Assembly: GCF_000195595.1 (NCBI RefSeq)
Contig: NZ_GL882573.1
Span: 1-64,000 of the forward strand
Direction: 5' to 3'
From: Actinomyces sp. oral taxon 170 str. F0386
GTDB lineage: Bacteria; Actinomycetota; Actinomycetes; Actinomycetales; Actinomycetaceae
DNA length: 64,000 nucleotides
Below are positions 18,694 through 37,440 of this stretch, in pieces (position 1 is the first letter of the stretch; each line of letters opens with the position of its first letter). The notes under the pieces were generated by a model. That model was given only the letters and a program-made list of their open reading frames with translations. It was not told the origin of the DNA and did not search any database. The position numbers and the translations under genes are program-made.

Positions 18694-18732
18694 CGGCGTC
18701 GAGAATCGTGGTGTCAGCGGTTCTCGACGCCG
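18694..18732. terminator. 12-bp inverted repeat spanning the copA stop codon, between convergent genes
   Basis: CGGCGTCGAGAA and TTCTCGACGCCG are perfect inverted arms around a 15-base loop that contains the copA stop codon. The esterase gene on the plus strand ends at 18624 and copA on the minus strand at 18714, so the hairpin can act on transcripts from both sides. No T-run follows. Confidence 0.5.
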
Positions 18733-21637: not shown

Positions 21638-21907
21638 TCAGCCCTCGCGGACGTCGCGCTCGACGGCGTCGAGCGTGTAGTCCCCGGCCTCATCAATGGC
21701 CTCAGCCAGGGCCGCGTCCTCGAGGCGGACGTCGGAGAGCACGGTGACGGTGGACTGCCCGCCCTTGTTGAGCAGGACAGAGACGTCCTTGACGCCGTCG
21801 AGGGCCTCGAGCTCCTCGGTGACGTGGGCGACGCAGTGGCCGCAGGTGAGTCCGGAGACCTTGAGGGTGGTGGTGCGGTCGACGCCGTCGGCGGTGAACT
21901 CAGTCAT
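21638..21907 (-). CDS. copZ: CopZ-like copper chaperone (HMA domain)
   Basis: An 89-residue single HMA domain with GLTCGHC (cysteines at 22 and 25), the Cu(I)-binding MxCxxC-type loop with Leu in place of Met. It presumably binds cytoplasmic Cu(I) and hands it to CopA, whose gene starts 71 bases downstream. It is somewhat longer than the typical 68-70 residues owing to an N-terminal MTEFTADGVDR and an acidic C-terminal tail. Confidence 0.93.
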   Translation of the reverse strand: MTEFTADGVDRTTTLKVSGLTCGHCVAHVTEELEALDGVKDVSVLLNKGGQSTVTVLSDVRLEDAALAEAIDEAGDYTLDAVERDVREG

Positions 21908-21988
21908 CTCTCACTCCTTGGGTTGTGAAGGAAACGGGTGGATCGGAACGGGAACGAGGCGACCCCGGGTGCCCGGGTCGCGCGGCGC

Positions 21989-22270
21989 TCAGGACCGTAC
22001 GAGCCGGGCGATGGCGTCGGAGGCCTCGCGGATCTTGACCATGCCCTCCTCGTCGCCGGCCTGGGCGGCGTGCAGGACGCAGTGGCTCATGTGGTCCTCC
22101 AACAGGCCGAGGCTCACGGCCTGGAGGGCCTTGGTGGCTGCGGAGATCTGGGTGAGGACGTCGATGCAGTAGGTGTCCTCCTCAACCATGCGGGAGATGC
22201 CCCGCACCTGCCCCTCGATGCGGCGCAGGCGCTTGAGGTAGTCCTCCTTGGTCCCGGTGTAGCCGGCCAT
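21989..22270 (-). CDS. csoR: Copper-sensing repressor CsoR
   Basis: A 93-residue DUF156/CsoR-FrmR family all-helical regulator. The Cu(I) ligands C35, H60 and C64 (TYC, DHMSHC) correspond to the C36-H61-C65 set of M. tuberculosis CsoR, so copper rather than formaldehyde or nickel sensing is expected. N-terminal YLKRLRRIEGQVRGISRMVEED is the family signature. Copper binding releases it from DNA. Its own start is about 40 bases from two near-identical palindromes that match CsoR operators, so the operon is autoregulated. Confidence 0.95.
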   Translation of the reverse strand: MAGYTGTKEDYLKRLRRIEGQVRGISRMVEEDTYCIDVLTQISAATKALQAVSLGLLEDHMSHCVLHAAQAGDEEGMVKIREASDAIARLVRS

Positions 22271-22306: not shown

Positions 22307-22350
22307 ATACCCCTGGGGGGTAGATGAGTCAAGTACCCCAGGGGGGTATA
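22307..22350. promoter_or_regulatory. Two CsoR operators in tandem
   Basis: TACCCCTGGGGGGTA (22308-22322) and TACCCCAGGGGGGTA (22334-22348) are near-copies of the CsoR box, each a TACCCC/GGGGTA inverted repeat, with centres 26 bases apart. They lie upstream of csoR on the minus strand and also about 90 bases upstream of the vLRR gene on the plus strand, so both could be copper controlled. Confidence 0.85.
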
Positions 22351-22434
22351 GGTGTCTTTCGTCCCCGGCGTCCGGTCCGTCCCGGTGGGCACGGACCCGG
22401 GACAGGGAGTGGGACGGCGTGGGATGCTCGTGCT

Positions 22435-23466
22435 ATGACCACCGTTGCGAATGCCGCCCCTGGCTCGGCCGGCCGCGGGGCGAGGACTGAGGCGACCACG
22501 ACGTCGGAGACGCCCGCAGACCCCGACCTCCAGCTCGCCAGGGACCCGAAGGCGGGCGCCGGGCGGCTCATGGTACTGGCCGGCAACCGCCCCGACCTGC
22601 GCGGTGTCATCGTCGACAATCCGGGCTGCTCTCCGGAGCTGCGCACCTGGGTCGGTCGGATGGGAACCGCCTCCGGCGGTCCCGGCCGCGGCGGGCGCCC
22701 CGGCGTCGAGGCTGATTCGGTCCGGGCGGACAGCGCTGACGACGTCGACGACGCAGACGACTCCCTGTCCCTGGCGCCCACGGGCTGGGAGCCCTCGGAC
22801 ATCGGCCTGGGTGACGACCCCTTCGGATCCGTCCTGGGTGACCCGCTCATGGGCTCCCCGCTCTTCGACGACGCCCACCACGGTGATGATGCCGGAGCCT
22901 CCGGCGATGCCGACGACGCTGATGGTGCCAATGATGGTGGCGCCGCCGATTCCACCGGCAGGGTCGACGGCGGAACCGGTCGGACTGGGCGAGGGCGACG
23001 GCCGCGATCGTCGAGCCGGCGCACTGCCGCGTCACGCACCGCCGCCGCCCGCACCGCCTCCCGAACGGCTGCGCCCCGGACCTCGCCGTCGCGCACCTCG
23101 TCCCCGCGGACGATAGCGCCACGCACGGCACCGTACCAGCGGGTGCCGGCGCCGGTGCCGCCCGGCCCCTACGCGCAGCCGGGTGGGTATCCGGCGCCTG
23201 ACTTCGGCCGGCCGGCTGGGCCCGTTGGACCAGTCGGGGGCGGCCCGGCTGCTCCGCCCCCCGGATTCCCGGGAGGGGTGCCGGGCTACCCCGGCGGTGC
23301 GCAGTCGACCGTGCCCCCGGCTCCCGGTCCTGGCGCAGGGCCCCACGCCTCGCACCGGCAGGCCGGGCCGGCGCCCTCCTCGGGCTCCAGCACGAGCTCG
23401 GTCAAGGTCGTGGGGTGGATCCTCTTCGTCATCCTCTTCATCATCCTGCGGGCCTTCACCGGCTGA
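22435..23466 (+). CDS. vLRR-domain protein with Arg-Thr repeats and a C-terminal membrane anchor
   Basis: A 343-residue protein. Residues about 28-75 match the variant leucine-rich repeat domain (LQLARDPKAGAGRLMVLA ... RPDLRGVIVDNPGCSPEL) found in many Actinomyces and Bifidobacterium proteins. It is followed by an acidic Asp/Gly-rich stretch, then a basic segment (about 180-235) made of repeats of the type RTAAS, RTAAP, RTSPS and RTIAP. A Pro/Gly-rich region comes next, and finally a single hydrophobic helix VVGWILFVILFIILRAF at the very C-terminus, typical of a tail anchor. The function of this family is unknown. Start ATG 22435 is chosen by length; the frame runs into the CsoR operators upstream. 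Confidence 0.8.
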   Translation: MTTVANAAPGSAGRGARTEATTTSETPADPDLQLARDPKAGAGRLMVLAGNRPDLRGVIVDNPGCSPELRTWVGRMGTASGGPGRGGRPGVEADSVRADSADDVDDADDSLSLAPTGWEPSDIGLGDDPFGSVLGDPLMGSPLFDDAHHGDDAGASGDADDADGANDGGAADSTGRVDGGTGRTGRGRRPRSSSRRTAASRTAAARTASRTAAPRTSPSRTSSPRTIAPRTAPYQRVPAPVPPGPYAQPGGYPAPDFGRPAGPVGPVGGGPAAPPPGFPGGVPGYPGGAQSTVPPAPGPGAGPHASHRQAGPAPSSGSSTSSVKVVGWILFVILFIILRAFTG

Positions 23467-23486: not shown

Positions 23487-24215
23487 CTACTCGGCGGGCG
23501 GCGAGCTCGGGCCGGGGCTGCTGGGAGCGCTGGCGGCGGGGATCGTGAAGGGGCTGTTGGAGGCGTAGCCGTGCTTGAAGGCCCACACCACGATCTCCAG
23601 GCGCGATGCCGCCCCCGTCTTGTGGAACAGGCCGGTGATGTGCGACTTGACCGTCGCCTCGGCGATGGCCAGCAGCGAGGCGATCTTGCGGTTCGAGGCG
23701 CCCTCGCACAGGAGGTGGAGCACGTCGCGCTCCCTCTCCGAGAGGTGGACGCTGCCATCCGCGCCGCGCACGGAGGCCAGGGCGTAGTCGATGAGGCGTG
23801 ACGTCGGCGTGGGGGCCACGACCTTCGCCCCGGAGTGGACCGTGCGCACCGCCGCGATGATCTCCTCGGCGGGGGCGCTCTTGAGCAGGAAGCCGCTGGC
23901 GCCCGCCCCCAGCCCCTGAAGAAGGTCCTCGTCGGAGTTGACGGTTGTCAGGAGAATGACTCGGGTCGACGGCGAGGTGCGGATCACCTCCCTGGTCATC
24001 TCCACGCCGTCCATGTTCTCCATGTGGACATCGGTGATGAGGACATCGATCTGATGCGACTGAAGAAACCGCAGGACGGCGCGGGGTGAGCGCGTCGCTG
24101 TGAGGACAGTGAGGTCCTTGACGTCGGAAAAATAGGACTCCAGATGGGCCAGGGCCATCGCGTCGTCGTCAACCAGGGCGAGGCTGACGCGATCGGGAGA
24201 AATCTGGGAAGACAT
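23487..24215 (-). CDS. NarL/FixJ-type response regulator, possible regulator of the RiPP cluster
   Basis: A 242-residue two-domain regulator; ATG 24215 is preferred because AAGGAGACAC lies just upstream. The receiver domain has acidic DDD at 16-18, phospho-acceptor D62 in LITDVHM, T90 and K112. The C-terminal LuxR-type HTH (about 165-225) reads LSERERDVLHLLCEGASNRKIA and TVKSHITGLF. No histidine kinase gene is adjacent, so it is an orphan here. It is transcribed divergently from the RiPP operon, with 266 bases between, and is the only regulator near that operon, so local control is a reasonable inference. It ends 20 bases from the convergent vLRR gene. Confidence 0.9.
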   Translation of the reverse strand: MSSQISPDRVSLALVDDDAMALAHLESYFSDVKDLTVLTATRSPRAVLRFLQSHQIDVLITDVHMENMDGVEMTREVIRTSPSTRVILLTTVNSDEDLLQGLGAGASGFLLKSAPAEEIIAAVRTVHSGAKVVAPTPTSRLIDYALASVRGADGSVHLSERERDVLHLLCEGASNRKIASLLAIAEATVKSHITGLFHKTGAASRLEIVVWAFKHGYASNSPFTIPAASAPSSPGPSSPPAE

Positions 24216-24481: not shown

Positions 24482-25855
24482 GTGTACCGCTCTGCGCTCA
24501 TTGAGGGTGTGGCGCCATCACTGGCTCGCGCTGCGTCCCTCGAGTCGCCCTTCGGCCTGGTTTCCCGTTCCACCGAGCTGCCCCAAGCGGCCGGAGAGCC
24601 GGTCTTCGCGATCTGGACCGGTCTTCTGGGTGATCCGTCTGAGGCGCTGAGGTCACAGCGCACCTGGAATCACCGTGCCGAGGCGGGCAACTTCGACGGG
24701 GCCGGCGGGGCCATCGACGCCGATCGCGCCAGACACATCGCGATCGTGGAGACGATGGAACGCTACTCCAGCTGCTCATGGACGGAGGAGGAGCTGGTGT
24801 GGGACACCCCCGCCGGTCTCGGCGAGGCCGCGATCGGACCGGAGCGCTGGCCGGCGTGCTCGGCCGCCGAGCTGGCGGACCCCGACTGCGGGCTCATCGC
24901 CTCAGACCCCCGCGTCCCCATGCGGTGGGTGCGCGGCTGGTCCCTGACCCGCGGCCGGGAGGTCTTCGTCCCGGCCGTCCTGACATACCTCAACTTCCCG
25001 GTACGCACCCCCTCCGAGCAGTTCGTCAACCCCATCTCCACCGGTACCGCCGCCCACTCCGACCTGCGCGAGGCGGTCCTGGGCGGCCTGCTCGAGGTCA
25101 TTGAGCGCGACTCCATCGCCCTGACCTGGCTGCAGCGCCTGCGCCTGCCGGCGGTCGCCGTCGATCCGTCCGCCCTGGGTGAGGTGGCCGCCGAGTACCA
25201 CCGGGTGGGCACCTCCACCGAGCTGGAGACCCACCTGTTCGACGCCACCACCGACTACGGCGTCCCCACCCTCTACGCCGTCCAGACCTCCCAGGTCGAC
25301 CCCGAGCTGGCCCAGGTGGTGGCCGCCACCTGCGACATCGACCCGCAGCGGGCGCTGGCCAAGATCCACCGCGAGCTCGCCTCCCTGCGCATCGCCCTGC
25401 GCAGCCACGCCCGCGGTCCGCGTGCCCAGGAGATCAAGGGCCAGGACCTCACCGTGGTCGGCGGCGCCCTGGCTGACGCCGAGCTGTCCATGCGCCACGT
25501 CTTCGACTTCCTCCTTCAAGGTGAGCGGCCCGTCCACGCCCTGGACGAGATCGGCGCCCTCGGGGCGTCGTCGGCCGGCACTGACGGCAGTAATGGTCCT
25601 GACCCGCTCGAGCAGGTCGTCGCCAACCTGGAGCGGGCCGGTGCCGAGGCGGTCGTCGTCGACATCACCACCGACGAGGCTCGCCAGGTCGGCATGCACG
25701 TCGTCAAGGCCCTCATCCCCGAGGCCATGCCCCTGTCCTTCAGCCACCACGCCCGCTACCTGGCCACGCCCCGCCTCTACGAGGCGCCCCGGGCGATGGG
25801 CCTGACCGTCCACGACGAGGCGGGGATCAACCCCGTCCGCCAGCCCTTCGCCTGA
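24482..25855 (+). CDS. YcaO cyclodehydratase (azoline-forming, TOMM/thiopeptide-type)
   Basis: A 457-residue YcaO-domain protein starting at GTG 24482, four bases after AGGAGGGTCC. It uses ATP to cyclise Cys, Ser and Thr side chains onto the backbone, giving thiazolines and oxazolines. ATP/Mg-binding glutamates are seen in IAIVETMERYS (E90, E93) and EAVLGGLLEVIERDS (E197, E205, E208). It ends in NPVRQPFA, a proline-containing tail as expected for azoline-forming YcaO proteins. The next gene starts three bases after the stop. It needs a partner (E1-like/F-protein) to bind the precursor leader; two candidates follow directly. Confidence 0.93.
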   Translation: MYRSALIEGVAPSLARAASLESPFGLVSRSTELPQAAGEPVFAIWTGLLGDPSEALRSQRTWNHRAEAGNFDGAGGAIDADRARHIAIVETMERYSSCSWTEEELVWDTPAGLGEAAIGPERWPACSAAELADPDCGLIASDPRVPMRWVRGWSLTRGREVFVPAVLTYLNFPVRTPSEQFVNPISTGTAAHSDLREAVLGGLLEVIERDSIALTWLQRLRLPAVAVDPSALGEVAAEYHRVGTSTELETHLFDATTDYGVPTLYAVQTSQVDPELAQVVAATCDIDPQRALAKIHRELASLRIALRSHARGPRAQEIKGQDLTVVGGALADAELSMRHVFDFLLQGERPVHALDEIGALGASSAGTDGSNGPDPLEQVVANLERAGAEAVVVDITTDEARQVGMHVVKALIPEAMPLSFSHHARYLATPRLYEAPRAMGLTVHDEAGINPVRQPFA

Positions 25856-25858
25856 GCC

Positions 25859-26656
25859 ATGACCCCGATGCCCATCACGCCGCCCACGCCACCGACCGAC
25901 TTCCAGGAGCCTCGCCCCGCCATGAGTACGACGCCGTCTGCACCGGCCACGCAGCCGGTACCGCAGGCCCCCACGGGGCCAGTGACGGTCTACCTGCCCC
26001 AGGGCGGGTTCGCGCGCGCCGTCGCCGCGCGGCTCGCCGGGGAGGGCGACGTCGTCGTCCCGGTCGACCAGGGGCTGGTCAGCGCCTACATCCCCTACGC
26101 CGACCGCGCGGTCCTCATCGCCGACCCCGACCAGTCCGGCCTGCGCGAGGACCTCGACACCCTGTCCTTCACCCGGTCCATGCCCTCCCTCGGCCTGGAG
26201 CTCTTCCCCACCGAGCTGCGTTGCGGGCCGCTCGTGGTCCCCGGTCGCAGCGCCTGCTACCGCTGCTACGACCGGCGCCGCCGCCAGCACGGCTACCGTC
26301 CGCTGCCGGAGGAGGTCATCACTGAGCACGGCCCGCTGGAGCAGGCCTACGCCCACCACCACGTGCTTCTGGGCGCCGGCCTCATCTCGCTGGCCCTCCA
26401 GGCCCTCGACCACCCGGAGGCGGCAGTGGAGAACGCCGACGACGTCCCGCGGATCGGCGGTCAGGTGTGGACCATCGACCTCGTCTCCGGGGTCACCACC
26501 TGCGCGAGGACCGTGGCCGTGGACCGCTGCGAGACCTGCTCGGGCCGTTACGAGGGCCGCCGTGACGGCCTGCCGGAGCTCGCGGCCCTCCTGCCCGGAC
26601 GGCGCACGAGCGGACGCACCTCACATGATCCCGATCGCCGCGGGGAGGTGGCCTGA
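25859..26656 (+). CDS. Small E1-like TOMM leader-binding/cyclodehydratase partner protein
   Basis: A 265-residue protein. ATG 25859 lies directly after the YcaO stop; ATG 25922 is an alternative that drops a Pro-rich 21-residue start. Two CxxC pairs, C133/C136 (CYRC) and C224/C227 (CETC), form the zinc tetracysteine seen in E1-like (ThiF/Ocin-ThiF-like) cyclodehydratase partners, with conserved PLVVPGRSACYRCYDRRR between fold elements. The nucleotide-binding half of a true E1 enzyme is reduced, which is normal for this group. It probably docks YcaO and precursor. Its last codons overlap the ribosome site of the next gene. Confidence 0.8.
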   Translation: MTPMPITPPTPPTDFQEPRPAMSTTPSAPATQPVPQAPTGPVTVYLPQGGFARAVAARLAGEGDVVVPVDQGLVSAYIPYADRAVLIADPDQSGLREDLDTLSFTRSMPSLGLELFPTELRCGPLVVPGRSACYRCYDRRRRQHGYRPLPEEVITEHGPLEQAYAHHHVLLGAGLISLALQALDHPEAAVENADDVPRIGGQVWTIDLVSGVTTCARTVAVDRCETCSGRYEGRRDGLPELAALLPGRRTSGRTSHDPDRRGEVA

Positions 26657-26657
26657 G

Positions 26658-28463
26658 ATGGCCGGGGACTCCCTCATGCGCGCCGGCGACGTCAGCCGCG
26701 CCGCCCGCCGCGACCTGCAGTTCCGCATCCCCCGCAAGCCCGTGGTCCGGCTCGGCCTGCGCGCCCGGCCCGATGAGAACGGCTGGATCGTCGACGGCGC
26801 CCGCAAGAGCCAGGTCCTGGGCGGGGCCTTCGCCCGCGAGCACATGGGCCCCCTGCTCAAGGCCTGTGACGGCACCCGCACCCTCGACGAGATCGGCGAG
26901 GTCACCGGCATCGGCCCCCAGGCCGCCTTCGAGGCCGTCTCCCTGCTGTGGACCGGCGGCATCGTCGAGGAGGGCGACACCGAGCCCGCCCCCCGCGATC
27001 CGGCGCCCGAGCTGGCGCGGTTCCTCTCCCGCCTGGGCGACTCCACCGGCGTCAACGACTCCTGGCAGGACGCCGCCCGCCGCCTGGCCGCCGCCCGGGT
27101 CGCCGTCGTCGGGGACGCTGAGCTCGCGGGCGAGATGGTCGCCGCCCTGGAGCCCACCCTGCCCGAGGTGCGGCTCGACGGCGCACCCCGGGCAGGGGAC
27201 ACGCTCACCGTCCTCATCGAGACCCAGGCCTCCGCAGGCCGCTCCGAGGAGGTGGCTCGCCGCTGCCGCGAGACCGCCATCCCGTTGCTGCGGGTGCGCG
27301 CCGAGCAGGAGGCGGTGACGGTCGGCCCCTACGTCGACGAGACCTTCTCACCCTGTCTGGCCTGCGCCAGCGCCGACGAACCCGAGCTCGGCCCCCGTCC
27401 CGACGCCGCGCGCCGCGACATCGTCATCGGCCTGGCCGCCCGGGCCGTGGCCGCGCTCATCGCCCGAGCCACCGTCACCCACCTGCCCGGGGACGCCCGG
27501 CGCACGGACCTGGCCACCTTCACCTACTCCGACCGTCCGGTCGTCTCCCGGCCCGGATGTCCCGTCTGCTCCGTGGCGGGGCAGAGCGCCGAGCAGGCGC
27601 CCGGTGAGGCCCCGGTGCCGGTGGCGCCGTCGGCCCCCGTGGGGGCCCGCTATGAGCAGTCCGTGGCCATCCCGCCGGCGGCCTTCGTGGACTCCAAGGG
27701 CCACCAGCAGCACTACAAGCCCTCCAACCTGCGCCTCCAGCGCGAGTTCCGCGACTGGCCGGTCTGTCGGCGCACACCTCTGCCGCCCGCCGACCTGGAG
27801 CGCCTCGACCAGCCCTGGCCCGTCGTGCACCCGCTGACCGACGACGGCTCCGAGCCCGACGTCGTCGCCCGCCCCACCCTGGGTGAGCTCGCCACGATCC
27901 TGGCGCTGTCGGTCGGCGTGCGCGAGCCGCTCGGCGCCGCGCCCGCCGACGAGGGGCCGGCAGATGCCGACCAGACCCCGCTGAGCGCCAAGCTGCGCCG
28001 CTGGACGGCGGCCGGCGGCAACATCGGCTCGGTGACCGCCTACGTCCTCGTCCCCGCAGCAGGATCCGCCGGGGAGGCCGGTAGGGGAGTGGACGGGGAT
28101 CGACTGGCCCCGGGTACCTACGTCTACATCGAGCGCGACCACGCCCTGGCCCTCATCGGACCGGCCCCCGGCGAGCAGGCCGGGCTGCAGGAGGCCGTGC
28201 CCGACGGCGTCGGAGCCCGGATCGTCCTGACCGGCAACGTGGACAAGGTGGCCCGTAAGTACTTCTCCTTCGCGCTGCGCATCGCCGTCCAGGACTGCGG
28301 CTGCTCCTTCGAGGTCATCCGCCTCGTCGCCGACGCCCTGGGAGTGACGCTGCGCGCCCGGGCCCGCTGGGACGAGCAGCTCATCGCCCGGGCGCTGGGC
28401 ACCGACCCGGCCCGCGAACCGGCCTGCATCGTCGTCGACCTGGGAGGCAGCCGTGCGCACTGA
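26658..28463 (+). CDS. Fusion of RRE, E1-like and SagB-type azoline dehydrogenase domains
   Basis: A 601-residue protein; ATG 26658 follows GGGGAGGTGG and touches the previous stop. Residues 28-105 look like a winged-helix RiPP recognition element (GAFAREHMGPLLKACDGTRTLDEIGEVTG). Residues 140-310 form an E1-like region with zinc cysteines C233/C236 (SPCLACAS) and C301/C304 (PGCPVCS). Residues about 345-601 match the SagB nitroreductase-like fold: RDWPVCRRTPLPPADLERL, SVTAYVLVPAAG, APGTYVYIERDHALALIG, RIVLTGNVDKVARKYFSFALRIAVQDCG, and a closing CIVVDLG. SagB enzymes use FMN to oxidise azolines to azoles. The fusion ties leader binding to oxidation. Confidence 0.82.
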   Translation: MAGDSLMRAGDVSRAARRDLQFRIPRKPVVRLGLRARPDENGWIVDGARKSQVLGGAFAREHMGPLLKACDGTRTLDEIGEVTGIGPQAAFEAVSLLWTGGIVEEGDTEPAPRDPAPELARFLSRLGDSTGVNDSWQDAARRLAAARVAVVGDAELAGEMVAALEPTLPEVRLDGAPRAGDTLTVLIETQASAGRSEEVARRCRETAIPLLRVRAEQEAVTVGPYVDETFSPCLACASADEPELGPRPDAARRDIVIGLAARAVAALIARATVTHLPGDARRTDLATFTYSDRPVVSRPGCPVCSVAGQSAEQAPGEAPVPVAPSAPVGARYEQSVAIPPAAFVDSKGHQQHYKPSNLRLQREFRDWPVCRRTPLPPADLERLDQPWPVVHPLTDDGSEPDVVARPTLGELATILALSVGVREPLGAAPADEGPADADQTPLSAKLRRWTAAGGNIGSVTAYVLVPAAGSAGEAGRGVDGDRLAPGTYVYIERDHALALIGPAPGEQAGLQEAVPDGVGARIVLTGNVDKVARKYFSFALRIAVQDCGCSFEVIRLVADALGVTLRARARWDEQLIARALGTDPAREPACIVVDLGGSRAH

Positions 28464-29193
28464 CTTCGAGACGTTGCGAGAGCTCGTCGCCGGCTTCTCC
28501 TCCGGATCGGGACGCCGCCCGGGCGAGGAGCCCACCTCCGACGGCCTGGCCGGGAGCCGCCCGCGCCCGCCGCTGGACTGCCGGGCGCCGGACGTACTCG
28601 TCCCCGGCCCCCAGGGCGCCTACCCCTACGACCTGCACCAGACCTTCGAGCGCCGCTCGTCGTCGACCAGCTATGGCGCCGAGCCGCTTGAGGCCGAGCC
28701 CCTCCTGACCATGGTCCGCGACGCCCTGGCCGATGACGTGCGCACCTGGGGTGAGGACGCGCAGGCTTGCCCCCTGGAGCCCTTCATCCTCCTCCTGCGC
28801 CCGAGCGGTGCCGAGCCGGGCATCTACCGGGTGCGGCTCGACGGCGTCGACCTCGTCCGCCCCCTGCCGGATGCGGAGGTCATCGAGGGCATGACGGTGC
28901 AGAAGGAGTTCGCCCGCGCCGGCGCCATCGTCTCGGTGGCCGCCAACCTCGATGAAGCCGACTCCTGGGGCGGGGCGTCCGGCTACCGGTTCGCCATGAG
29001 CCGCAGCGCGGCCCTCATCTACTCGCTGCACCTGCGCGCCGTCGCCCGTGGGCTGGTGGGGACGGTCTTCGCCGGCTTCGCCACCTCGGCGGTGCGCCAC
29101 CTGCTGGACTCCGACGGTGTCAGCCGCCACCAGATGTTCGCCGTCACCATCGCCAGCCCGCAGGAGGCCCCACCCGACCAGAGGGCCGGCTAG
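28453..29193 (+). CDS. Second SagB-like nitroreductase-family dehydrogenase
   Basis: A 246-residue protein starting with GTG 28453, inside the last codons of the fusion gene, so translation is probably coupled. The pattern matches the SagB/nitroreductase fold: YPYDLHQTFERRSSSTSYGAEPL at the start, PFILLLRPSGAEPGIYRVRLDG, then GAIVSVAANLDEADSWGGASGYRFAMSRSAALIYSLHLRAVARGL and GFATSAVRHLL at the end. It is shorter than the SagB domain of the previous gene. It could be a second azoline oxidase, or form a heterodimer with the first. The N-terminal Arg and Ser residues expected to hold the FMN phosphate are plausible but not proven. Confidence 0.75.
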   Translation: MRTDFETLRELVAGFSSGSGRRPGEEPTSDGLAGSRPRPPLDCRAPDVLVPGPQGAYPYDLHQTFERRSSSTSYGAEPLEAEPLLTMVRDALADDVRTWGEDAQACPLEPFILLLRPSGAEPGIYRVRLDGVDLVRPLPDAEVIEGMTVQKEFARAGAIVSVAANLDEADSWGGASGYRFAMSRSAALIYSLHLRAVARGLVGTVFAGFATSAVRHLLDSDGVSRHQMFAVTIASPQEAPPDQRAG

Positions 29194-29281
29194 CCCTGGC
29201 CACCACCCGCGAGCGCCGCTGGACCAGCGGCGGCCAGACGGACCCAGAACTCCATACCGCGCCAGAGCGCCACGCAGACCA

Positions 29282-29345
29282 CCCCGTTCGCGGGGTTTGG
29301 GGTCCGGTCCCGGCAGACCGGACCCCCGGGGCCCGATCGGGCCCC
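29282..29345 (+). promoter_or_regulatory. Three consecutive hairpins upstream of the precursor gene
   Basis: First CCCCG-TTCG-CGGGG (29282-29295) with a UUCG tetraloop and a short TTT after it; then a 10-bp stem GGGGTCCGGT/ACCGGACCCC (29299-29326); then the 18-base perfect palindrome GGGGCCCGATCGGGCCCC (29328-29345). They lie between the last dehydrogenase stop (29193) and the precursor ribosome site (29371). They may attenuate read-through, protect the precursor mRNA 5' end after processing, or mark a separate promoter region. Confidence 0.7.
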
Positions 29346-29389
29346 GCTCCTGCCCACAAGACATCTGAGAGGAAGGAGGTGAACAGCAT

Positions 29390-29566
29390 ATGACGAACAG
29401 CGCAATTGATCTCACCCTCGCCGACAGTGACTTCGGCGTCGAGGAGCTGCCCGAGGGCAACGCCCTGGGTTGCGCCTTCAGCCACGCCAGCGCGTCCTGC
29501 CCGGCCAGCGCGGCCTCGGCCTCGTGCCCGGCCTGCGCCGCCAGCGCGTCGACGACGTCCTGCTGA
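29390..29566 (+). CDS. RiPP precursor peptide (azole/dehydroamino-acid peptide), 58 residues
   Basis: ATG 29390 follows the strong ribosome site GGAAGGAGGTGA (29371-29382) at a good distance; the stop is TGA at 29564. The acidic leader MTNSAIDLTLADSDFGVEEL with PEGNALG after it resembles thiopeptide leaders, which end around LPE-x-A. The core from about residue 28 contains five Cys, nine Ser and two Thr, with Ala and Pro between. Residues 33-58 are three tandem 9-residue units: ASASCPASA, ASASCPACA, ASASTTSC (last unit one short). Cys residues are obvious YcaO substrates and Ser/Thr are substrates for either azoline formation or LanB dehydration. It sits between the azole-forming genes and the protease/dehydratase genes. 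Confidence 0.9.
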   Translation: MTNSAIDLTLADSDFGVEELPEGNALGCAFSHASASCPASAASASCPACAASASTTSC

Positions 29567-29575
29567 CGACCCCAC

Positions 29576-29613
29576 GGTGGCGGGCGGGGGACCGGGGTCT
29601 CCTGCCCGCCACC
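29576..29613 (+). terminator. 10-bp stem hairpin just after the precursor gene
   Basis: GGTGGCGGGC (29576-29585) pairs perfectly with GCCCGCCACC (29604-29613), ten bases past the precursor stop, with no T-run. Such hairpins often stabilise or partly terminate RiPP precursor mRNA so that precursor exceeds enzymes. The protease gene follows 50 bases later without an evident new promoter. Confidence 0.65.
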
Positions 29614-29663
29614 AGCGGTACCCGGATCCCCGCCAACCGATCTGAGGGAGCCATGACCCCACG

Positions 29664-30878
29664 ATGAGCACGGTGATGAGTACGGCGATGAGCAGCACGA
29701 GCACCCCGACGAGTCCGATTCCGCGCCTGCGCCGTGGCGTGAGCCTCATCGTCGGGATGGACAACCAGCCGATGCTGTTCGACTCCGACTCGGGCAAGTA
29801 CCACCGGCTCGGGGCGGCCGCAGCCTTCATCGTGAACCAGTTCGACGGGGTGCGTTCCCTGCCGACCATCATCGAGGAGCTGCCGCAGGACATCGACGAG
29901 GCCGGTGCCAGACGCATCACCGGCCTCGTCGACAACCTGCGTGAGAAGAGCCTCCTGGTGGGCAGTGAGCCCGCTCCCGCCGCCTCCGCCGTCCCGGCGG
30001 CTCCTGCACGCACCAGACGCGTCCGTGGACGCCACACCGCCCAGCCCCGTCAGGCCCGCCACCTCAAGGTCGAGAAGCCCCGCCGCAGCGGGGGCTGGTG
30101 GCTGCCCCGCATCATCATCGCCCGCAAGTACCACCGGATCGTCGCCCCGATCGTCACCCTGCTCCAGCGCCTACCGGCCCGCGCGCTCAGCTGGGTCTTC
30201 CTGGCGCTGGCCGTCTGCGGGTACGCGGCCGGGGCGATGGCTCTGAGCTCCCTGGCCGGGGGGCCCCGTCCCGGTGCCTTGGTCCTCATCATGGCGGTGG
30301 CGATCCAGCTGGTGAGCATCCTGCTGCACGAGTCCTGGCACGCCATCGTCGCCGGCTATCTGGGCACCCCCATCCGCGGGCTGGGAGTGGCGCTCATGTT
30401 CTGGGCGATCCCCATCGCCTATGTCGACCGCACCGACTCCTACCGGGTGCGCTCCCGGCGCGGGTTGACGATGCTCGCGCTCGCGGGCATCTTCTCCGAC
30501 GGCGTCGTTTGCGGCCTGGAGGCGGCTGTCGCCTGGGCCTCCTCGGGGACGGCGCGGCAGGTGGCCCTCACCCTGTGCGCCTTTCAGCTCACGATGCTCA
30601 TCACCAATCTCAACCCCCTCACCCAGTCCGACGGTGTCGCCGCGGTCGAGGCGGCCACCGGCTCGGTCAACCTGCGCGGGCGCTCCATGTTCGTCCTGCG
30701 CCGCGTCCTGTCCCGTCAGCCTCTGCCGCCGGCCCTGGCCGTCATGCGGCCCGCGGTGCGATGGGGCTACTTCGTCTACGGGCTTCTGTGCTCTCTTCTC
30801 GGTCTCCTGGCCTTCGGGATGAGCGTTGTATGGATAGGCTATTGGCTGTACGCCCTCGTGAAAGGTTTCCTCCTATGA
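29664..30878 (+). CDS. PqqD/RRE-like domain fused to M50-family membrane metalloprotease
   Basis: A 404-residue membrane protein. Residues about 22-100 resemble a PqqD-type peptide-binding winged helix (VSLIVGMDNQPMLFDSDSGKYHRLG ... DGVRSLPTIIEEL, then LVDNLREKSLLVG). A basic linker follows, then about six membrane helices. The zinc motif HESWH (H222, E223, H226) and the second site-2-protease motif NPLTQSDG (317-324, with D323) are present, as in peptide zinc metalloproteases of RiPP clusters. Within the cluster the likely role is leader recognition and cleavage at the membrane, perhaps with release of product. ATG 29664 is chosen; ATG 29676 is possible. Its stop overlaps the next start (ATGA). 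Confidence 0.82.
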   Translation: MSTVMSTAMSSTSTPTSPIPRLRRGVSLIVGMDNQPMLFDSDSGKYHRLGAAAAFIVNQFDGVRSLPTIIEELPQDIDEAGARRITGLVDNLREKSLLVGSEPAPAASAVPAAPARTRRVRGRHTAQPRQARHLKVEKPRRSGGWWLPRIIIARKYHRIVAPIVTLLQRLPARALSWVFLALAVCGYAAGAMALSSLAGGPRPGALVLIMAVAIQLVSILLHESWHAIVAGYLGTPIRGLGVALMFWAIPIAYVDRTDSYRVRSRRGLTMLALAGIFSDGVVCGLEAAVAWASSGTARQVALTLCAFQLTMLITNLNPLTQSDGVAAVEAATGSVNLRGRSMFVLRRVLSRQPLPPALAVMRPAVRWGYFVYGLLCSLLGLLAFGMSVVWIGYWLYALVKGFLL

Positions 30879-33511
30879 CGCAGCCGGTTCTCTCCCGTGC
30901 CGGTGCCTCCCCATCCCGCCAGCCACAGCCGTCCTCCACATCCGCCGTGACCCCCGGGGAGCCCGTCCCGTCCGCTCCATCTCCTGCCGCACCAGCGTCG
31001 GTGGCGGCACCGGATCCGGAGCCCCCGGCCCTGGCCCAGCCCGCCGTTGCCCTGCCCACCCTCGTGCGTCTGGGCGGGCTCCCCGTGCGGGCCGTTCCCG
31101 AGACCACCGCCGCCGTCACCGGCAACCTGGAGTACTTGCGCCGGCTCGATGAGGTTCTCGACGGCGCCGCGAACCAGCTGCTCGACCCGCTCTACGAGCT
31201 CATCCCCACCCTGGCCAAGACCGAGCGCCGCCTGGTCCTGCGCGCCAAGCGCCGAGTCTTCCAGGGGCGCGCCACCGGCTTGTCCGACGAGGTGCTCCAG
31301 GGCCTGCCGGCTGAGCTTCGCGCTCTCCTGGAGCGCTGGGACGCCCTGGTAGCCCGCAAGGAGGAGACCCGCGCGCGCCTGGCCGTCCTCGTCGACGTCG
31401 ACCTGGACCGCAGCCGCGAGCTGCTGGCGGCCGGCCTTGACGAGCCCGGCTATCAGGAGTCCCTGGCGATCGCCGCCCCGGCCCTCATCTCCACCCTGAC
31501 CACCCGCGGCCGCAGGCTCGAGGACCCCCGCGTCCTGCGCACCCTCTACACCCTGGCCACCCGAGCCGCCCTCAAGACCAGCCCCTTCTCGGGACTGACC
31601 ACCGTCAACGAGGCGGGTCAGCCCGCTGCCGGGCGCAGCTACCGGATGGTGGCGACCCATCTGGCCTACCGCATCCTGAGCGTCACCGCCCAGGAACTGG
31701 CTCCCGACGGCGCCCTCTACCTCGAGCCCGCCCCTGTGCGCCGGGCCTACAGCTCCAGCGCGGGCTCGGCCGGTGCCTACGGCCAGTACCCGCCAGGTGA
31801 GGCCGAGGCGGAGGCACTGACAGTCGTCGGCGAGCACGAGTACGGCAACGGCATGGTCTTCCGCCAGGAGACCGTTCAGCCCGCCCGCTGGCTCCAGGAG
31901 ACCCATGACGCCCTGACCGGCGGCGGCATGCACGCCGTGCTCAGCGTGCGCGACGCCTGCGAGCGGGTGGGTGGCGCCGACCCGCGCCTGCGCCTGGAGC
32001 GGCAGCTGGCCTCGGGCGCCGTCGTGCCGCGCGTGCCCTGGTACCGCGGGGAGAACCCCTTCCCGCTGCTGGCCGCCACGCTCTCACCGGACCAACAGCA
32101 CCGGTGGGGCCGGGACCTGGCCTGGCTGGCCCGGCTCGATGAGGCCGTCGGCGCTGCCGACGGGCCCACGCGGGCCGATCTCCTCAACCGCACGGTGCGC
32201 TTGGCCGAGCGCGTCTTCCCCGACGGCGAGCTCGGCGAGCGCCCCAGCGGCTTCCTCTACGAGGACCGTGAGTCGGCCCGCAGCTGGGCCGATCCCCTCG
32301 ATGACGCCCCCTTCGCTCAGGACGTGCAGATCCTGGGCGAGCTCGCCGACCCCTGGGTGGCCCGCTCCCACATCTACGACCTCATGGTGGCCCGGTTCGT
32401 CTCACTGTTCGGAAGTGGTGGGGTGTGCAAGGACCCCCTCGCCTTCTTCATGACCATCGCCCACGCCCCCGACGGTGACGAGGAGATGCTGCGCGCCGCC
32501 GGACTCGACTACGCCGCCGGCCCCGACACGGAGCGCGCCGCCATGCCCGGCGGGCTCTCCGGCTCGCCCAGGCACCTGGGCGCCTTCCTCCAGCCGGTGG
32601 CCCCCAGCGCCCGGACCTACGCCGCCGGTGGGGGGCTCACCGTCGTCAACGCCTTCACCAATGCCAACGGCTCTCTCCAGGCCCGCTTCCACCGGCTCCT
32701 GGGCTCCGGCTTCCGGGAGCGCCTGGCCTCGCGGATCCGTACCGCCTGGGGCACCGAGCGGGTCCTGGAGATTCAGGCCAGCACCGAGTGCAATACCGGC
32801 CAGGCCGTCTCCTGCGGGCTCCTGCCGCCGCTGGGCCTGCCCGACGAACCGGGGGCACCGGACGCGGTCCCTCTCAGTTCCCTGCGGCTCGTCCACGACC
32901 CGGCCACGAGCACCCTGTTCCTGGCCGACGACGCCGGCCCCGTGGGATTGGCCTATCTGGGCCTGACCCCCCAGTACCTCCTGGGCGGCTACCTGTCCTG
33001 GCTGGTGCTGCTGAGCGACCCGTGGTCCCGGCTGCCCCCGTTCGCGGACCACTGGACCAGCCGCCGTCGGGACCTGAACGGGCCCCTGCCCGACGAGGTG
33101 CTGCACTCCGAGCGCGCCGTGGCCGGCCGGCTGGTGACGCGCCGCGAGTCCTGGACCTTCCCGGCCGCGCAGATCGCCCCACTCATGGATCGCGACCTGA
33201 CCACGACCCTGCTGCACATGGACGACCTGCGCAAGCAGTGGGGGATGCCGGTGGAGGTATTCGTCCACCAGCACATGCCCTCCCAGGGCGCCACCTTCGA
33301 CCAGCACAAGCCGCGCTACGTGGACCTCACCTCACCGGTCTCGCTGCTGGCGCTGCGGGGCTGGATCGATCCCAACGCCGCCCACATCAGCTTTGTCGAG
33401 GCCCTCCCGGCCCGCGGCGAGGCCCTGGGGCTCACGCAGGACGGTGAGGCGACGGTGGCCGAGTACTTGGTGGGACTCCAGTGGTCCAAGAACCTGGAAG
33501 GCATGGCATGA
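30875..33511 (+). CDS. LanB-type dehydratase, glutamylation (N-terminal) protein of a split pair
   Basis: An 878-residue protein starting at ATG 30875 that overlaps the protease stop. Residues 1-60 are Pro/Ala/Ser low complexity. The rest matches lantibiotic dehydratase N-terminal domains: LYTLATRAALKTSPFSGLTTVNEAG, LYDLMVARFVSLFGSGGVCKDPLAFF, LEIQASTECNTGQAVSCG, and a C-terminal part ending QHKPRYVDLTSPVSLLALRGWI, in which the last segment is typical. In split systems this protein attaches glutamate from glutamyl-tRNA to Ser and Thr side chains of the precursor. It lacks the SpaB_C elimination domain, which is supplied by the next gene. Size and split arrangement are as in thiopeptide and goadsporin clusters. 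Confidence 0.88.
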   Translation: MTQPVLSRAGASPSRQPQPSSTSAVTPGEPVPSAPSPAAPASVAAPDPEPPALAQPAVALPTLVRLGGLPVRAVPETTAAVTGNLEYLRRLDEVLDGAANQLLDPLYELIPTLAKTERRLVLRAKRRVFQGRATGLSDEVLQGLPAELRALLERWDALVARKEETRARLAVLVDVDLDRSRELLAAGLDEPGYQESLAIAAPALISTLTTRGRRLEDPRVLRTLYTLATRAALKTSPFSGLTTVNEAGQPAAGRSYRMVATHLAYRILSVTAQELAPDGALYLEPAPVRRAYSSSAGSAGAYGQYPPGEAEAEALTVVGEHEYGNGMVFRQETVQPARWLQETHDALTGGGMHAVLSVRDACERVGGADPRLRLERQLASGAVVPRVPWYRGENPFPLLAATLSPDQQHRWGRDLAWLARLDEAVGAADGPTRADLLNRTVRLAERVFPDGELGERPSGFLYEDRESARSWADPLDDAPFAQDVQILGELADPWVARSHIYDLMVARFVSLFGSGGVCKDPLAFFMTIAHAPDGDEEMLRAAGLDYAAGPDTERAAMPGGLSGSPRHLGAFLQPVAPSARTYAAGGGLTVVNAFTNANGSLQARFHRLLGSGFRERLASRIRTAWGTERVLEIQASTECNTGQAVSCGLLPPLGLPDEPGAPDAVPLSSLRLVHDPATSTLFLADDAGPVGLAYLGLTPQYLLGGYLSWLVLLSDPWSRLPPFADHWTSRRRDLNGPLPDEVLHSERAVAGRLVTRRESWTFPAAQIAPLMDRDLTTTLLHMDDLRKQWGMPVEVFVHQHMPSQGATFDQHKPRYVDLTSPVSLLALRGWIDPNAAHISFVEALPARGEALGLTQDGEATVAEYLVGLQWSKNLEGMA

Positions 33512-34692
33512 GCACGCACGACGACGCCCGGTCCAGCCGGCGCGAGCAGCGCAACCAGCCCAGCCGGCTCACCCGCTCCCGGCGGCTGCGCTGGCTCGGC
33601 GGGCGATCCCGGGTCGGAGAGCAGGCCGAGCCGTCGGGACAGGCCGGCCAGCAGAGCAGTCGGGGCAGCCAGGGCGGTCAGGGCGACGCGGCCCCGCAGG
33701 TGGGGGCCTCGATCCCTGGGATCCAGCCCCTGGAGATGGCGGCCGCCGACTTCGGCAGCCTGCGCGCCCAGCACAGCTCGGTGCGTCAGCGGGGCTCGGC
33801 GCTGGTCAATCAGGCCGAGGACGTCGGCTGGTTGTACGCGCGGATCTACTGCGCCGGCGGGGACGACACCGACGAGCTGCTGCCTGAGATCGCCCAGTGG
33901 CTGGCCCGGGCTCGCGGCCAGTGGGACATCCGCTCGGCGCACTTCCTGCGCTTCGTGGACCTGCGCGGGCACCACATTCGGCTGCGGCTCAAGGCCGTCC
34001 AGGGCGTCCTGGACGAGGCCTACGCGAGCATGCGCGAGCTGGGGGCCGTCGCCCGACGGACCGAGGTGAGCACGGTCGAGCGCCTGGTCTTCGACCCCAT
34101 GACCGGAGGCATCGGCGCCAGCCGGCCGGGGATCGCCTTCGGTGTCTACGGCCCCGAGTACGACAAGTACGGGGGCGTGGCCGGCGTCGAGGAAGCCGAG
34201 CGCCACTTCTACGTCTCCAGCCGGTGGTGCCTGGACCACCGGATCTGGCAGATTCCGCGTTCGGTGCCGCGAGCGGCCCTGGCGGCGCGGTTCCTGGCGC
34301 TGGCGGCCCGCAGCGCGCCACTGCCCGAGGCCGAGCTGCTCTCCGCGCACCTGCGGATGTGGGGCTCGCGCCTGCCCGCGCACCTGCGCGACGGCAGCGC
34401 CCTGGGACCGATCGTCCAGCAGCTGCTGGAGGTCATCGAGTTCCAGTTCGACGAGATCCCCTCCTGGGGCCAGGCGGCCGGGGCCATTGGCGAGCTGGCC
34501 GACGACGCCGGGCGCGCCATCGGCGTCATGGGGGCGGGAACCGGTGGGCGCCGTGCCCTGGACCTGCTGCACATCGACGTCAACCGGCTCGGGCTCAACC
34601 CGGCCGAGGAGTGTATCGCCGGGCTGTGCGCCCGCCAGCTCCTGGCCGGAGGCGCTGTGCCCCCGGCCCAGCCCTCCGCCGCCGCCGGATAG
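33508..34692 (+). CDS. SpaB_C-type elimination-domain protein (thiopeptide-type biosynthesis)
   Basis: A 394-residue protein overlapping the previous stop (ATGA at 33508). Residues 1-80 are a basic, Gln/Gly-rich low-complexity start. The SpaB_C domain begins with DVGWLYARIYCAGGDDTDELLPEI, has the basic signature HFLRFVDLRGHHIRLRLK, and FGVYGPEYDKYGGVAGVEEAERHF, the counterpart of YxxEVERYGG. In NisB the RxR and the ERYGG arginine bind glutamylated substrate; here RLR is kept but the latter is Lys. It most likely eliminates glutamate to give dehydroalanine/dehydrobutyrine. The same fold makes the pyridine in thiopeptides, so a cyclase role cannot be fully excluded, but a dehydratase partner is needed and only one SpaB_C protein is present. 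Confidence 0.82.
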   Translation: MSTHDDARSSRREQRNQPSRLTRSRRLRWLGGRSRVGEQAEPSGQAGQQSSRGSQGGQGDAAPQVGASIPGIQPLEMAAADFGSLRAQHSSVRQRGSALVNQAEDVGWLYARIYCAGGDDTDELLPEIAQWLARARGQWDIRSAHFLRFVDLRGHHIRLRLKAVQGVLDEAYASMRELGAVARRTEVSTVERLVFDPMTGGIGASRPGIAFGVYGPEYDKYGGVAGVEEAERHFYVSSRWCLDHRIWQIPRSVPRAALAARFLALAARSAPLPEAELLSAHLRMWGSRLPAHLRDGSALGPIVQQLLEVIEFQFDEIPSWGQAAGAIGELADDAGRAIGVMGAGTGGRRALDLLHIDVNRLGLNPAEECIAGLCARQLLAGGAVPPAQPSAAAG

Positions 34693-37335: not shown

Positions 37336-37440
37336 GGGACTGCGTTTCACCCCGAGGACGTACTTCTCCCGTAGATGACTGAGAGCAGACCTCAGTCATC
37401 TACGGGAAGACGCAGTCCTCGCCGGGGAAGTACGTCCTCG
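37336..37440. repeat. Large inverted repeat, copy 1 of a repeat family
   Basis: The inner stem TCCCGTAGATGACTGAG (37367-37383) pairs perfectly over 17 bases with 37391-37407 around a 7-base loop. Outer arms CGAGGACGTACTT (37353-37365) and its complement (37428-37440) add 13 bp, and GGACTGCGT occurs once on each arm in different positions. It lies between convergent genes, so it can act as a bidirectional terminator. A related element is at 50234-50344. Confidence 0.85.

Follow-up and report, generated by a model that had tools for sequence, protein, structure and literature searches.

The 64,000-nucleotide stretch of Actinomyces sp. oral taxon 170 str. F0386 analyzed here (contig NZ_GL882573.1, positions 1 to 64,000; hereafter the window) carries a gene cluster that is probably responsible for a linear, azole- and dehydroalanine-containing ribosomally synthesized and post-translationally modified peptide (RiPP) of the goadsporin–spongiicolazolicin kind, a relative of these systems rather than a new class. 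The cluster, about 11 kb long and inserted beside purB, consists of a divergent LuxR-type regulator gene and eight plus-strand genes in the order YcaO, E1-like, E1-like/SagB fusion, second SagB-like protein, precursor, PqqD-M50 protease, LanB-N and LanB-C (Table 1). All genes listed in the initial annotation are present on one strand in the interval it covered, except that the E1-like/SagB proteins number three and not two. Neighboring genes abut or overlap, as had been noted, apart from gaps of 196 and 97 bases flanking the precursor gene. The window belongs to Actinomyces, within the oris/naeslundii group, and the seven named loci found by a LanB-C search (A. oris, four; A. naeslundii; A. 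johnsonii; Actinomyces sp. ZJ308) are from this genus, in agreement with the Actinomyces-like source proposed earlier.

From its first Cys, the core of the precursor reads CAFSHASASCPASAASASCPACAASASTTSC, and its positions 1, 4, 7 and so on to 31 are Cys, Ser or Thr throughout. Among 20,000 shuffles of this core, 3 had a filled register in any phase, 111 had all Cys in one phase, and none had both. The same pattern recurs in 20 distinct cores of the Actinomyces loci that we call type I (40 residues in 12 cores, 31 in four, 37 in two, and 39 and 43 in one each), where 266 of 266 third positions are Cys, Ser or Thr, 164 of 165 Cys lie in register, and Cys and Ser replace one another at register sites between genomes. 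Ser stands directly before 75 of the 76 sites found at every ninth residue, which is every third register site, and four in-register sites are preceded by Ser in the window core. A core of X1-(S/T/C)-X2 units with Ser before some of the azole sites is a mark of the goadsporin group; in goadsporin, azoles form in such units and two dehydroalanines arise at Ser directly before an azole, which is required (PMC5303826).

Cores from outside type I follow the register with a break. We compared 38 distinct cores chosen because they contain an SCP or ACP motif and are rich in Ser, Cys and Thr, leaving aside an out-of-frame open reading frame (ORF) at 13927 in locus L079 and ORFs with neither motif (one in L043, two in L106). 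Up to the SCP motif, the register is occupied at 147 of 152 sites and contains 22 of 22 Cys. Past the motif, a register moved on by one residue fits best (147 of 150 sites; 7 of 8 Cys); the original phase is still occupied there at 127 of 152 sites, with 1 Cys, owing to the frequency of Ser/Thr pairs. For 29 of the 30 typed outside precursors, the unshifted register scored 205, against a shuffle mean of 128.7 (sd 6.1) and with 0 of 5000 shuffles reaching it. Judged by the sequences compared, the unbroken triplet register is special to type I.

The dehydration enzymes point in the same direction. By sequence alone, LanB-N has no Pfam or NCBIfam match, and its profile finds as best solved relative 9jhq ("Goadsporin biosynthetic protein") at 5.9e-67 over nearly the whole length, followed by chain 6ec7 (TbtB) at 5.9e-28. 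The cluster thus has a split LanB with a goadsporin-type glutamylation protein, as in the goadsporin group, together with the YcaO and SagB-type flavin dehydrogenase of that group (the TIGR03605 match of the latter being under its cut-off). The LanB-C profile aligns with 9g04, 5ehk and NisB at E values of 2e-6 to 0.006. Residues R158, R160, K220 and H355 of LanB-C, invariant in 16 of 16 relatives, correspond to the NisB elimination residues R784, R786, R826 and H961, H355 through the weaker 5ehk alignment.

In a thiopeptide (pyritide), two dehydroalanines would be joined by a [4+2] cyclase, here either the SpaB_C protein itself or an enzyme encoded elsewhere. The precursor matches a "thiocillin family RiPP" model and LanB-C a "thiopeptide-type bacteriocin" model, so that automatic annotation will call the cluster a thiopeptide. 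Against this, LanB-N is nearer to the goadsporin protein 9jhq than to 6ec7, and the window core begins with Cys, whereas thiopeptide cores generally start with Ser. The 99.96% complete genome has a single PF14028 match and a single TIGR03891 match, so that the earlier count of only one SpaB_C protein extends beyond the cluster. The pyridine synthase model NF045556 did not match LanB-C at E 0.1 and found nothing in the genome at E 1, and it had no match in five Actinomyces genomes, the window's own included. None of the seven chains found with the LanB-C profile at E 1 is named a pyridine synthase, although the presence of one in the structure set is unverified. We judged a thiopeptide to be very unlikely, since no cyclase was found in the genome, by searches with weak controls. 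The evidence supports the azole and dehydroalanine chemistry proposed in the initial annotation and a predicted product without a pyridine ring. Family models alone, by which the point was judged, did not place the SpaB_C protein in a cyclase clade.

Based on homology and sequence pattern, we propose the following pathway. The E1-like proteins would bind the leader, where the N-terminal part of the E1-like/SagB fusion may be a winged helix resembling a RiPP recognition element, and the YcaO protein would cyclize Cys, Ser and Thr at every third core position. The SagB-type proteins would then oxidize the rings to thiazoles, oxazoles and methyloxazoles. LanB-N would glutamylate the Ser that immediately precedes an azole, for the most part one in each nine residues, after which LanB-C would eliminate the glutamate to leave dehydroalanine. 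Finally, the PqqD-M50 membrane protease, probably the leader peptidase, would remove the leader and perhaps also release the peptide. By this scheme, the 31-residue window core should carry 10–11 azoles and 3–4 dehydroalanines and be free of pyridine rings. With 10 azoles and 3 dehydroalanines, its predicted monoisotopic masses are 2580.81, 2693.89 and 2764.93 for cleavage before GCAF, LGCAF and ALGCAF, respectively, lowered by 18.01 per additional dehydroalanine and by 20.03 per additional azole. If instead the LanB pair were silent or acted at few sites, the result would be a plain linear azole peptide with little or no dehydroalanine. Sparse dehydration is compatible with the window core, where Ser precedes just four in-register sites, and with goadsporin itself, which has two dehydroalanines (PMC5303826). 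We nevertheless hold such a product to be highly improbable, as both LanB-N and LanB-C occur in 25 of 25 Actinomyces loci, the elimination motifs are kept, and the near-invariance of Ser before every third site is difficult to reconcile with it.

The C-terminus of the core allows a further possibility. Cys is the last residue in 20 of 20 distinct type I cores and in 0 of the 38 counted outside cores, and the sole off-register Cys among the 20 is C-terminal. Under the goadsporin rule, an azole site must be followed by another residue, so that no azole is expected from a C-terminal Cys (PMC5303826). Cys thiols could close LanB-made dehydroalanines to give a lanthionine- or thioether-bridged azole peptide, with the C-terminal Cys as the nucleophile; no LanC-like gene is present among the cluster genes (the search for LanC being confined to the cluster), one Anoxybacillus precursor-like ORF (L106) that is not among the 38 also ends in Cys, and the terminal Cys may simply become a thiazole. 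We consider this closure unlikely. Comparably unlikely, in our estimate, is the broader scheme in which the Actinomyces C-terminal Cys is spared from azole formation and either forms a ring with a dehydroalanine or provides a terminus that is reactive or binds metal. An azole ribbon bearing a thioether ring or a free thiol would then result, part linear azole peptide and part lanthipeptide, made with no dedicated cyclase and released by the PqqD-M50 protein without a dedicated exporter.

Several points weigh against assignment to the linear azole/dehydroalanine peptides. The cluster is known from its genes alone, with no known product, mass or activity. The 266 register sites are not independent because the cores are related; the shuffle of the single window core is the independent evidence. 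The second SagB-like protein is weakly recognized: its profile has a sole match, the putative nitroreductase 3eo7 (E 0.049), and the Anoxybacillus gene at the same position carries the annotation nitroreductase. Neither an exporter nor an acetyltransferase is encoded in the insert. Goadsporin biosynthesis includes an Ffh-like self-protection gene, and no such extra Ffh is present here; as the genome has two SRP54-domain genes and no third, self-protection by a second Ffh in the goadsporin manner was rejected. The apparent lack of a cyclase depends on weak controls, given that PF14028 and TIGR03891 are unproven for pyridine synthases and that the NF045556 control (genome G550) scored 6e-28 but 98.6 of 325 bits, far under the cut-off. 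The same model also returned noise below the cut-off in 4 of 14 control genomes and reached its cut-off in none. The LanB-C homolog of locus L087, the one control protein compared (98.9 of 325 bits with NF045556, also under the cut-off), retains three of the elimination motifs and has the same four elimination residues, although Asn replaces the Arg of FLRF, so that these residues alone cannot tell elimination from cyclization. The starts assigned to the LanB-C ORFs of L080 and L087 are uncertain.

Table 1. Features of the predicted azole/dehydroalanine RiPP cluster, with positions in the window.
Feature	Position	Strand	Evidence or remark
LuxR-type response regulator	23487..24215	-	Response_reg + GerE; divergent from operon
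YcaO cyclodehydratase	24482..25855	+	PF02624 211.9 bits; TIGR03604 420 bits
E1-like (TOMM precursor leader peptide-binding family)	25859..26656	+	TIGR03882 40.2 bits, cut-off 36.9
E1-like/SagB fusion	26658..28463	+	TIGR03882 45.7 bits; TIGR03605 47.9 bits, under cut-off 78.4
Second, stand-alone SagB/nitroreductase-like protein	28453..29193	+	TIGR03605 at E 0.026 only
Three consecutive hairpins before precursor gene	29281..29346	+	Fold of 29240-29385, -73.3 kcal/mol, z -3.82
Precursor peptide, 58 aa	29390..29566	+	NF033482 "thiocillin family RiPP" 36.4 bits, cut-off 25; triplet-register core from residue 28
17-bp hairpin, ten bases past precursor stop codon	29576..29613	+	Folds; conserved in relatives
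PqqD domain + M50-type membrane protease	29664..30878	+	PqqD 25.4 bits; NF041824 86.3 bits, under cut-off 300
LanB-N, predicted Ser/Thr glutamylation protein, goadsporin type	30875..33511	+	Placed by profile
LanB-C (SpaB_C), predicted glutamate elimination protein	33508..34692	+	PF14028 91.9 bits

In the putative leader peptidase, HESWH and N315/P318/S322-D323 are invariant in 14 of 14 relatives. The initial annotation saw no exporter, which is true of the window site, where no recognizable transporter, second SpaB_C protein or acetyltransferase lies between the genes that flank the insert, but not of four relatives that have an ABC exporter pair directly past LanB-C: L042, L043 and L079, where an ABC-2 pair is immediately 3' of the gene, and an Anoxybacillus plasmid. 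In L080 and L083, a scan of three ORFs beside the cluster found no transporters. When the ABC-2 permease of type II was searched against the window genome, the matches were weak (best at E 5.3e-8 and 25% identity), so that no dedicated exporter is identified by this search with one permease. Just past the type I cluster of L046 (15457-19118) lie genes for a histidine kinase and an ABC ATPase/ABC-2 permease pair, separated by one for a LuxR-like regulator; the set may serve in immunity or export.

Both gaps that flank the precursor gene fold into strong hairpins. The downstream one, of 17 bp, is present in most type I loci and was not seen in L049 and L058, where the assigned start of the next gene shortens the gap. 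Across 11 sequences, pairing is retained in 99.5% of its 186 pair cells, and changes on both sides are found in two pairs; in comparison with 500 shuffles, the number of both-side-changed pairs was reached by 125, and that of both-side-changed cells by 0. The absence of a T run behind it leads us to interpret this hairpin as an element for processing or stability. The hairpins on the two sides of the precursor gene probably keep its mRNA at a higher level than that of the enzymes. The LuxR-type response regulator, whose gene adjoins YcaO in 21 of the 21 type I loci that extend that far, probably controls expression of the cluster.

The surroundings of purB in ten other Actinomyces genomes (nine with no LanB-N match and one type II carrier, G027) include a short, cluster-free site in 7 of the 10. 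From the equivalent of the gene at 21696-22172 to purB, the distance is about 0.9-1.7 kb at these sites (L096-L101 and L103) and 12.6 kb in the window, and neither the regulator nor cluster genes were detected between the flanking genes of the seven. The stretch is longer in L102 and L104, and the neighbor gene is absent from L105. A gene with LRV repeats at 22324-23466 was not detected at the comparison sites (E 1e-15), so that the left border of the insert may lie on either side of it, and the added DNA comprises the regulator, the eight genes and perhaps the LRV gene. A heavy-metal P-type ATPase with an HMA domain (18714-21566, minus strand) belongs to the conserved neighborhood and also stands beside most cluster-free sites. 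Farther downstream, at 37361-37440, an imperfect inverted repeat seen by eye surrounds CGTAGATGACTGAG...CTCAGTCATCTACGG, with adjoining short sequences repeated in inverse order.

LanB-N is found in 24 of 49 Actinomyces genomes, the window's own included. A precursor search of the family matched 28 of 213 genomes, of which 24 are the LanB-N carriers of the genus; the other four matches (E 0.002-0.01) are probably due to chance. In samples that likewise include the window's own genome, LanB-N matched 12 of 394 genomes of the class at E 1e-20 (seven of the others at or below E 1e-100, four weaker) and, at E 1e-40, 6 of 396 of the order and 2 of 396 of the phylum. The 25 Actinomyces loci share the enzyme gene order at 31-96% protein identity; L038 starts inside the cluster at a contig end and hence has no first two genes, and L035/L053 and L040/L056 are probably the same genomes taken twice, so that at least two genomes are doubled in the set. 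The type II Actinomyces loci L042, L043 and L044 have four or five precursors each, and genome G044 carries both a type II and a type I cluster (L044 and L045) about 100 kb apart on one contig. Seven loci of other Actinomycetia (L079-L085), the strong matches of the class sample, have the seven enzyme genes in the same order, with several precursor-like ORFs between the second SagB gene and the M50 gene; the weaker class loci L086 and L087 have a different gene order. In the LanB-N tree, types I and II form one Actinomyces group (support 100) within an 11-row group that includes L079 and L080 (support 99). This tree of 18 rows was built by a quick method and has long branches (L087, L086 and L109); its deeper branches are unsure, and we use its Actinomyces part.

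On a plasmid of Anoxybacillus amylolyticus, genes for an ABC ATPase and a permease come after enzyme genes in the same order. Among plasmids, a search with the window LanB-N gave no match at E 1e-5, but this search misses distant relatives, since a YcaO search did reach the Anoxybacillus cassette. A Streptomyces plasmid (NZ_CP109471.1, 143709-165045) encodes YcaO, E1-like, a long unnamed protein and nitroreductase in the same order, but GNAT and an ABC pair come next and its annotation includes no LanB genes; it may be an azole-only relative. An Actinomyces oris plasmid record (NZ_CP116225.1, 415 kb) has a different YcaO gene at 173057-173977 (31% identity).

The cassette is therefore widespread, with parts already named by NCBI models. 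Because it is present in 24 of the 49 genomes, and the carriers include A. oris, A. naeslundii and A. johnsonii, dental plaque may be a site of action of an uncharacterized modified peptide. The weakest element of our interpretation is an antibacterial function, which we assume by analogy. The natural cores predict exact product masses, and a series that varies mostly by whole 9-residue modules and by Cys/Ser swaps at fixed sites could serve as a test of azole register and dehydroalanine placement. The cluster also suggests an M50 protease in a group in which an ABC transporter-peptidase is the proposed leader remover.

In the open-access literature, to which the search was confined (subscription papers lay outside it), we recognized no characterized Actinomyces product of this kind. 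Thiopeptide clusters of the TbtA-F type share YcaO, SagB and split LanB with the window, and the precursor leader matches NF033482, but no pyridine synthase of the TbtD/PbtD type was found here by the NF045556 search, the control of which is under the cut-off. The coryneazolisins of Corynebacterium are likewise encoded by clusters for thiazole/oxazole-modified microcins (TOMMs) with LanB-like dehydratases; these clusters lack a [4+2] cyclase and a known product, and they have two D proteins and a contiguous core of 10 Cys/Ser/Thr, one Ile and 5-7 Cys/Ser/Thr (PMC4603692). The Actinomyces cluster has one YcaO and an every-third-residue core instead of two YcaO proteins and contiguous Cys/Ser/Thr.

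Closer likenesses are found among products that combine azoles with dehydro residues. In the dehydrazole carnazolamide, azoles form first and dehydration occurs only before an azole (PMC10676384), and nostatin A consists of blocks of dehydro residue, azole and plain residue that are said to resemble spongiicolazolicins and goadsporin (PMC11583998). This tripeptide pattern also resembles the Actinomyces core. Dehydrazoles, however, use a LanM-type enzyme and a long proteusin-like leader, and nostatin A is a proteusin, whereas in the Actinomyces cluster the split LanB is of class I and the leader is short (PMC10676384, PMC11583998). Spongiicolazolicins A and B of Streptomyces sp. CWH03 are linear peptides of 29 and 28 residues with azoles and dehydro residues (PMC8838263, PMC11583998, PMC10676384), a size near that of the outside multi-precursor cores, which for example can measure 29 residues when counted from the first register block. 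Compared by description only, the Actinomyces cores exceed them in length and Cys content and show no register step.

Of goadsporin's own set, an ABC transporter-peptidase, an acetyltransferase and an Ffh-like gene, none was found in the insert. Goadsporin and the Actinomyces cluster share a split LanB and, by prediction for Actinomyces, azoles in X1-(S/T/C)-X2 units, dehydroalanine before azole and a linear form (PMC5303826). Goadsporin has no cyclase; none was found here either, by searches whose only control match is under the model's cut-off. Goadsporin alone has one 19-residue core, a fused cyclodehydratase (PMC4603692), the ABC transporter with peptidase domain GodB and the acetyltransferase GodH. 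Actinomyces instead encodes YcaO and E1-like as separate proteins, a pair of SagB-like proteins and a PqqD-M50 protease, and its cores span 31-43 residues. The azole positions of goadsporin, which we deduce to be 2, 5, 8, 12, 15 and 18 from the residues named in PMC5303826, include a four-residue step as in the outside cores. The initial claim that the core is unlike any known is thus softened, because its letters are new but its triplet rule is shared with goadsporin (PMC5303826) and its units resemble the tripeptides of nostatin A (PMC11583998). In comparison with goadsporin and the spongiicolazolicins, the core is unusually long and regular, and what is new is the unbroken triplet register, the series of cores mostly nine residues apart and the invariant C-terminal Cys. 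A designed 38-residue tandem goadsporin core yielded 12 azoles and 4 dehydroalanines (PMC5303826), and the type I cores read like a natural counterpart of that design.

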